A DNA stretch of 33,985 bases from Pseudomonadota bacterium (GTDB lineage Bacteria > Pseudomonadota > Gammaproteobacteria > Burkholderiales > Thiobacillaceae): NCBI GenBank assembly GCA_030691265.1, contig JAUYET010000104.1:1-33985 (forward strand), written 5' to 3'. A program made the translations under genes and the position numbers. This document shows, piece by piece, positions 1 to 33,985 of the stretch. Numbering within the stretch: the stretch's first letter is position 1; each line of letters opens with the position of its first letter. The notes below the pieces were generated by a model. That model did no database searches and was not told where the DNA came from. It saw only the letters and a program-made list of their open reading frames with translations.

Positions 1-132
1 ATCGGGTTGTCACACACACCCACTAGATGTAGTGGCTCGTGATTTCGCGGCATGGCACCGTAGGTTGGGCAAAGCGAAGCGTGCCCAACAGCGCGCCGGT
101 TCGTTGGGCACGCTTCGCTTTGCCCAACCTAC
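1..132 (-). repeat. Left partial copy of the 183-bp miniature inverted-repeat element
   Basis: Positions 1 to about 132 match the reverse complement of the intact element at 33761-33943 with only scattered differences and one small indel. The copy enters the window already inside its terminal repeat (it starts at atcgggtt and lacks the outer cgtgctt). It contains the same core dyad, gtaggttgggcaaagcg at about 60-76 facing the complementary cgctttgcccaacctac ending at 132. Beyond 132 the similarity to the intact copy fades but may continue weakly to about 178, so this looks like a degraded or truncated copy. No coding capacity is credible here. Confidence 0.75.
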
Positions 133-233
133 GCCACTGGCGCGAAGTGGAACGGTTGTTCCCGGATACCGCGCGGGTGCGCGCAAAACTGCGCCACGAC
201 GGCCGATGTTATTTCGAGTTCTGACGTGGTGCC

Positions 234-33669: not shown

Positions 33670-33745
33670 GGGTGCTTAGCTCAGTTGGTAGAGCGTCTGC
33701 CTTACACGCAGAATGTCGGCGGTTCGAGACCGTCAGCACCCACCA
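33670..33745 (+). tRNA. tRNA-Val (anticodon UAC)
   Basis: A 76-nt tRNA. Acceptor strands gggtgct (33670-33676) and agcaccc (33735-33741) pair, followed by A and encoded CCA. The anticodon stem tctgc/gcaga encloses cttacac with anticodon TAC (33703-33705). The D-arm (agctcagttggtagagc) and T-arm (ggttcgagacc) are normal. It begins 9 bp after hup, the usual hup-tRNA-Val linkage. Confidence 0.97.
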
Positions 33746-33760
33746 GATAGTAGTTTCAAG

Positions 33761-33943
33761 CGTGCTTATCGGGTTAACACACCCACCCACTCCCGGTAGT
33801 AACGTTGGTTGGGCAAAGCGATGCGTGCCCAAGTAACCGGCGCGCGGTTGGGCACGCTTCGCTTTGCCCAACCTACGGCGCCATGCCGCGAAATCACCCA
33901 CCCACTACATCTAGTGGGTGGGTGTGACAACCCGATAAGCACG
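33761..33943. mobile_element. 183-bp MITE-like element with 15-bp terminal inverted repeats and 8-bp target duplication
   Basis: The ends are cgtgcttatcgggtt (33761-33775) and its exact reverse complement aacccgataagcacg (33929-33943). The element is flanked by the direct repeat gtttcaag at 33753-33760 and 33944-33951, a perfect 8-bp target duplication. Inside is a central dyad (ttgggcaaagcg... against ...cgctttgcccaa) and a subterminal hairpin with 13-bp arms (33895-33907 and 33912-33924, loop catc). There is no coding capacity, so it would need a transposase in trans. It lies 15 bp beyond the tRNA-Val CCA end. After it, 33952-33985 holds nothing recognisable. Confidence 0.85.
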
Positions 33944-33985
33944 GTTTCAAGAAGTCCAAAGCAGTTCAAGAAACCCGCCTAAGTG

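Follow-up and report, generated by a model that had tools for sequence, protein, structure and literature searches.

What is the short, perfectly ended element that lies beside a tRNA-Val gene at the end of contig JAUYET010000104.1, and by what route did a REPIN come to occupy its interior? The contig, analysed here over its full 33,985 bp and called the window, belongs to assembly GCA_030691265.1 of a bacterium of the Thiobacillaceae. A REPIN (REP doublet forming hairpin) consists of two inverted, GTAG-tagged hairpins of the repetitive extragenic palindrome (REP) type and is a substrate of the Y1/HUH enzymes known as REP-associated tyrosine transposases (RAYTs). Judged by its sequence, the element is best described as a miniature inverted-repeat transposable element (MITE) derived from an insertion sequence (IS) of the IS1595 family, with a REPIN in place of the transposase gene. 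We consider it probable that this IS1595-derived MITE moved at its tips and that its REPIN also serves as the end of a second type of insertion, joined to the target at CT dinucleotides.

The element and its parent insertion sequence

The element spans positions 33761-33943 (183 bp) and ends 42 bp short of the window end. Direct reading bears out what a sequence-only reading of this DNA had described, namely perfect 15-bp terminal inverted repeats (TIRs), an exact 8-bp target duplication, a length of 183 bp and a position adjoining tRNA-Val. The REP-type palindrome that it had placed in the interior is also upheld and can be refined to a full REPIN with two inverted GTAG REPs. The features are as follows.

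33670-33745, forward strand: tRNA-Val(tac), upstream of the element
33753-33760, no strand: target duplication, left copy GTTTCAAG; the same octamer stands at 33944-33951
33761-33775, forward strand: left TIR CGTGCTTATCGGGTT; the same tip is present on 1111-bp IS1595-family elements
33761-33802, forward strand: A arm, the parental IS left end through CCGGTAG and then TAA beside the REPIN (matched by eye to the L281 left end)
33803-33877, no strand: REPIN core, a pair of GTAG-type REPs in inverted orientation separated by ~14 nt, in the order CGTAG-hairpin-spacer-hairpin-CTACG
33804-33832, forward strand: REP 1, tag GTTG (33804-33807) and hairpin GTTGGGC...GCCCAA; the tag is GTAG in most other copies printed
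33847-33876, reverse strand: REP 2, tag GTAG and hairpin, inverted, read directly
33878-33943, forward strand: B arm, the parental IS right end (compared by eye), with an inner hairpin at 33895-33924
33929-33943, reverse strand: right TIR, exact reverse complement of CGTGCTTATCGGGTT
33944-33951, no strand: target duplication, right copy, read directly and 8/8 identical to the left GTTTCAAG
1-136, no strand: second copy of the family at the window start, a B arm (tip lost at the contig start) with a REPIN

The parental transposase, which the sequence-only reading could not name, is now identified as that of an IS1595-family IS of 1111 bp with the same ends, of which a same-genus genome has an intact copy. 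End-pattern scans of the genus and of named genomes, for which figures refer to the matches listed, recovered tip pairs 1111 bp apart. Four of eight elements of 0.99-1.11 kb (L281, L310, L312 and L338) carry exact 8-bp duplications and the other four do not. The protein of L338 is an IS1595-family transposase (NF033547, 2.7e-57; PF12762 and PF12760). Genome G016, of the same genus, encodes an IS1595-type transposase without stops that is 80% identical to the query and, by arithmetic, shares the contig coordinates of L281. By eye, the arms of the window element correspond to the first ~40 bp and last ~60 bp of the 1111-bp elements. The window element is short, lacks a transposase gene, and has a TIR at both ends and an 8-bp duplication as in the autonomous element. 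A protein search of the element's own genome, which is 58% complete, returned no such IS1595 transposase and no autonomous parent. Records with the same IS tips are, among the matches listed, mostly bins labelled Betaproteobacteria or Pseudomonadota. MITE-like elements of 102-246 bp in other bacteria share the IS1595 tips and exact 8-bp duplications and have very different interiors (L273, L276, L282, L287, L298, L311, L322, L335, L336, L339, L340, L351 and L361).

Within the own genome (2.02 Mb in 117 contigs), the 15-mer end, allowing two mismatches at most, is present 27 times forward and 26 times reverse, that is 53 matches against 3 (1 + 2) in a reversed-letter control. The element is matched at ~40 places or more, a count for which 40 out of 157 first-look candidates were scored, and the REPIN core is found in at least 41, some of them outside a TIR element. 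At the tRNA-Val locus the element is absent from all three relatives examined (L253-L255). Their site is empty and the octamer unrecognisable within diverged spacers, the duplication being visible only in the window. Since same-ended copies exist and the three relatives examined lack the element, it is neither alone in its genome nor, as far as these relatives show, an ancestral feature of the locus, and its earlier description as a complete, non-autonomous TIR element with a target duplication stands. The suggestion of a probably recent insertion survives in part: ends and duplication are perfect, but the core is at most 94% identical to the other own-genome copies listed and has GTTG in one of its two tags. 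Some other REPIN cores in this genome are 99% identical to one another.

Beyond this genome, matches at E <= 1e-5 occur in 15 of 61 genomes (own included), many over the core only; the same-genus genomes G011, G006 and G016 have the IS arms too. A search of 300 genomes from the order at E <= 1e-14, with few candidates scored per genome, found the core in 2, each belonging to this genus, and the plasmid collection searched gave no match. Contigs C6, C20, C22, C65, C74, C78, C88, C92, C97, C103 and C104 of the own genome begin or end inside copies, and gaps in the assembly therefore often coincide with these repeats.

The inverted arms reach 43 nt at 84%, with an inner 30-nt inverted repeat at 93%. 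Folded as single-stranded DNA, the element has z = -13.5, and 0 of 200 shuffles are as stable. Arms and hairpins take up the 183 bp, and no open reading frame of at least 100 aa is listed across it. An Rfam scan (E <= 0.1) returned, beyond the tRNA, only a microRNA match of 23 bits, taken as chance because it lies far under the gathering score of 69 bits. Blocks ACCAGATA and AAACCCGCCTAAGTG flank the element, one on each side. Downstream of the tRNA, the relative L254 has ACCAGATAACC... and next AAACCCGCCTAAGTGCGGGTTTTTT, a terminator-like hairpin; its downstream block AAACCCGCCTAAGTG opens a terminator-like hairpin with a T run, of which the window version is cut by the contig end. Lying between tRNA-Val and this terminator-like sequence, the copy in the window may be transcribed.

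Two footprints of insertion in one family

The copies fall into two classes by the target duplication beside them. In an initial survey of 36 units from the own genome, 11 of the 27 with a REPIN edge and 0 of the 9 with two IS tips had long direct repeats scoring above the 99% point for 1148 mismatched pairs. In G006, G011 and G016, 15 of 78 units exceeded a 99% point set on 1822 pairs. A stricter, anchored test required the duplication to abut both edges. It drew on 130 distinct units from the own and same-genus genomes, 82 of them REPINs without an IS arm at either edge; 8 units with an IS arm but no recognisable tip were dropped and 122 scored. Units with two tips showed an exact 8-bp duplication in 5 of 13 cases. 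With one tip and a REPIN edge, 8 of 27 were duplicated, over 10, 31, 35, 35, 40, 53, 66 and 88 bp, and among REPIN-only units 8 of 82, over 15-83 bp. REPIN-edged units as a whole thus show long, variable duplications (10-88 bp) in 16 of 109 cases; among 7386 mismatched flank pairs, 0.027% scored equally well in the anchored test. At L006, which is absent from the scored matches, GAACCAAC can be made out by eye on either side. Hairpins in the duplicated flanks are a by-eye impression for which no claim is made.

A later set of 40 loci, none drawn from the anchored test, was fetched by end coordinates and aligned with free offsets; it included several that were cut by contig ends or had other cores and were left uncounted. 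Two-tip copies there had an exact octamer in 5 of 6 cases, the remaining one matching at 7/8, and one-tip copies a long duplication in 4 of 11 (matches of 63/63, 20/20, 74/75 and 35/39). The 11 are 14 TR rows minus L508, L515 and the second L526 row, in which the IS arm continues beyond the REPIN (4/14 if these are kept). One of these later loci, L516, is very likely L355, with the same length and octamer, and that octamer is among the 27 used for the preference matrix described below.

The REPIN edge obeys a positional rule. CT stands exactly 3 bases past CCTACG at 138 of 256 edges without a recognised IS arm (171 distinct REPIN units), compared with 12-21 of 256 (5-8%) at each of offsets 4-11 and 31 at offset 1. 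The base after CT is G in 76 of the 138. The copy at window positions 1-136 has the REPIN edge CCTACG-CCA followed by CTGG, that is CT at +3. At 17 of 24 duplication ends on the REPIN side, a count in which the near edge was chosen partly by CT, the CT/AG also occurs in the copy distal to the element, which marks it as target sequence in these cases.

The tip edge follows a different preference, roughly G.T..A.C in a matrix built from 27 exact octamers. Of the 8 duplicated one-tip units, 5 have the highest-scoring octamer of their duplication right next to the tip (in one of the 5 the duplication offers just 3 octamers), and 0 of 20,000 random placements reached the mean score obtained for seven such units. 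Because its octamers fit the IS1595 preference, the tip side of these units resembles the product of an IS1595 event, and the REPIN side that of a CT event. They may reflect one hybrid event or two steps; in the two-step version a MITE insertion may have been followed by the joining of its REPIN end to a nearby CT of the empty sister.

Relatives with the target in single copy are available for some insertions. L118 has its target twice, and CTAACAACCTGG occurs once in L242, one of five relatives, the other four having lost the motif. L024 has a displaced second copy, and the corresponding 3' end of a coding sequence is single in three of three relatives (L222, L244 and L246). By eye, the 52-bp duplication at L119 begins where one reading frame ends and stops at the end of the following frame, and none of four relatives has the element or has kept the intergenic sequence. 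The single relative compared for L019 diverges before the repeat, and the flanks of L117 and L115 are present in relatives. At L113 (1490-1580; G000 C39) the REPIN interrupts a small reading frame at AAAG^CTGAAG; no target sequence is duplicated or missing, and one frame stays open through the insertion.

A proposed route and its alternatives

The anatomy, the parent IS, the two duplication classes, the CT rule and the single-copy sites in some relatives are observed, and from them we infer that a RAYT is the enzyme, how the strands are transferred, that the element moves in trans and how the MITE arose. The IS1595 transposase would act in trans on the TIR tips and generate the 8-bp duplications. 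Units edged by a REPIN, either the REPIN alone or one IS arm with a REPIN, would be joined to the target at CT dinucleotides. For this a RAYT, as a Y1/HUH nuclease, may nick C|T on the two target strands at separate places, and each REPIN 3' end (...CCTACG-NNN-C) would be joined to the 5' T. Host fill-in of the 5' overhangs would then leave a duplication with CT at its start and AG at its end. Coinciding nicks, as at AGCT, would give no duplication, the outcome expected for the blunt insertion at L113, and nicks of opposite polarity would delete the target. A comparable chemistry is reported for TnpAREP, which cuts REP substrates at C|T and becomes linked to the 5' end in vitro; an added 3'OH strand was joined to the T in that assay (PMC8266576, in excerpt).

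An insertion of the deletion type that replaced the interior of an IS could have produced the MITE itself. Such an origin is suggested because the A arm is cut exactly after CCGGTAG, that is after AG, and because REPINs of other families attach to the arm at this position or a few bases from it. The ATGTGGTGAG type follows CCGGTAG+CCCA, the GGCGGAAAAG type CCGGTAG+CACGC, and a CCCGGAT-type REPIN joins the A arm after CCGGTAG+TGG. IS1595-type ends on REPINs of these three types are seen at L355 (7115-7264), at L507, L510, L521, L496 and L528 (G011) and at L074 in the own genome, and L355 has an exact 8-bp duplication. A further TIR-like element at L070 (~1180-1400; G000 C44), beginning TTCTAGAAACCTCAGTTGA..., contains a different REPIN, GTAGGTGCGAAT, and is by eye apparently nested in a copy of the family.

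Matches to RAYT-type genes (NF047646, partial ones included) number 6 in the own genome, 8 in G006, 10 in G011 and 11 in G016, and several carry REPs of one type on both sides. RAYT-type genes near REP-like hairpins of one type are found at L391, L392, L394, L398, L402, L404, L406, L410 and L415, and at least seven REP types are seen near such genes within this one genus.

Several observations weigh against this proposal. Of the REPIN-only units, 74 of 82 have no duplication, and of the one-tip units 19 of 27; the majority of insertions therefore either produced none or have since lost the flanking sequence. Looser tests with free offsets show much less contrast, with 9 of 159 REPIN units against 2 of 80 mismatched, and in another comparison 11 of 133 against 15 of 793; other REPINs in the flanks may raise this null. 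The B-arm junction of the MITE, GCG|CCATG, is not CT and counts against the simple version. CTA is present at 27 of the 138 CT edges, some perhaps decayed A arms that inflate the count, and the true CT rate may therefore be somewhat lower; 3 of the 11 later one-tip copies lack CT at +3. The only RAYT-type gene clearly flanked by TTGGGC REPs, L404 in G016, appears as two overlapping frames, and none of the six RAYT matches in the 58%-complete own genome was seen beside such REPs. Long duplications were absent from five other REPIN families (0/20, 0/16, 0/15, 0/7 and 0/6). This test, with 6-20 units per family, included ~0.79 Mb fetched for it; one further family gave 2/15, both in a single tandem array, and an earlier pass over other families gave no convincing case.

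Among the alternatives, tandem amplification, in the manner of bacterial interspersed mosaic elements (BIMEs), would duplicate a REPIN with its flank and then lose one REPIN, leaving flank-REPIN-flank. Tandem units of REPIN and spacer do exist, at L115 (3223-3458, spacer of ~83 bp) and L062 (2001-2347, ~103 bp), and the L115 pair includes one of the 8 duplicated REPIN-only units. We nevertheless regard amplification as unlikely, as it demands precise loss in every other case, does not easily account for the 15-bp duplication at L118 and leaves the IS tip at one edge, with its IS1595-type octamer, unexplained. Replication template switching at stalled hairpins, in which the nascent strand would jump from the REPIN edge to a nearby target without any RAYT, is favoured by the strong hairpins and by an own genome that gave no intact cognate RAYT. 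It predicts junctions guided by microhomology and not a CT placed at a constant distance of three bases from each edge, and seems to us quite unlikely.

The two-tip copies behave exactly as expected of a plain MITE, moved whole by the IS1595 transposase with the REPIN as an inert passenger, and the 19 one-tip copies without duplication suit the accompanying idea that such copies are decayed fragments. Truncation, however, can neither make a duplication that abuts both a tip and a REPIN edge (L023 with 88/88 matches, L514 with 63/63) nor place CT at a fixed offset, which makes a purely passive REPIN very unlikely. That short-read drafts duplicated flanks around repeats is hardly credible even though many contigs end inside copies, since duplicated flanks often differ by a few bases between their two copies (matches of 48/52, 39/40, 57/62 and 63/66), which speaks against assembly error, and duplicated units from four genomes (G000, G006, G011 and G016) obey the CT and octamer rules.

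Our preferred explanation therefore continues to combine IS1595 transposition at the tips with CT-directed joining of the REPIN. As a more general proposal, advanced tentatively and with somewhat less than even confidence, REPINs may insert as double strands through independent C|T nicks made by a RAYT on both target strands, with a long duplication, a blunt join or a deletion as the result depending on the order of the nicks, and deletion-type insertion into an IS may yield REPIN-cored MITEs served by two transposition systems.

Relation to known systems

The window element resembles IS1595-family elements and other IS-derived MITEs in its identical TIR, its 8-bp duplication and arms like the ends of the 1111-bp elements. 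It differs in that a REPIN has replaced the coding region and that half copies with one end have been inserted with long duplications. With REPINs and BIMEs (Bertels and Rainey 2011; Nunvar 2010) it shares two inverted GTAG hairpins and a high copy number. The counterpart of a cognate RAYT may be L404 of a same-genus genome, a RAYT-type gene bordered on each side by these REPs and split into two frames. Unlike in REPINs and BIMEs generally, the REPIN here lies inside a TIR element, and some insertions have long CT...AG duplications. The excerpted text of PMC3116915, PMC2817692, PMC8266576, PMC3733652 and PMC8049555 contains no statement of long target duplications at REPs.

The nesting of REP dimers in longer palindromes is not new, because it was reported in 2013 (PMC3733652): according to excerpts of that paper, conserved palindromes of A. 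variabilis, H. neapolitanus and T. roseum regularly contain GTAG or CGTC dimers. The same excerpts give no target duplication, parent IS or insertion rule for these palindromes, whereas here the outer palindrome is identified as the ends of an IS1595 element. The IS200/IS605 family uses Y1/HUH chemistry related to that of RAYTs, and its cut site is chosen by a guide tetranucleotide (PMC8266576, in excerpt). Insertion beside a short fixed motif, as in that family, is also found here, with CT at +3 of 138 of 256 unarmed edges. A large target duplication is not expected of that type of insertion; here, 16 of 109 REPIN-edged units in the anchored test and 4 of 11 one-tip units in the later set are duplicated and the rest are not; long duplications thus mark a minority of copies, and in the excerpts consulted IS200/IS605 enzymes are not described as making them. 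Within the portions of the literature searched, what is new is the identification of the outer element as IS1595, the occurrence of both footprints within a single family and the long duplications that run from CT to AG.

The spread of REPINs has been called 'a central, but unresolved issue' (Bertels and Rainey, PMC3116915), and in 2021 the pathway of dissemination was still described as work in progress (Corneloup et al., PMC8266576), both as given in excerpts of these papers. The footprints described here, CT at the edge, CT-to-AG duplications in a minority of copies and single-copy sites for some of them, provide a concrete record of insertion. They make the question of REPIN spread testable in vitro and in genomes, and they suggest a route from an insertion sequence to a MITE.
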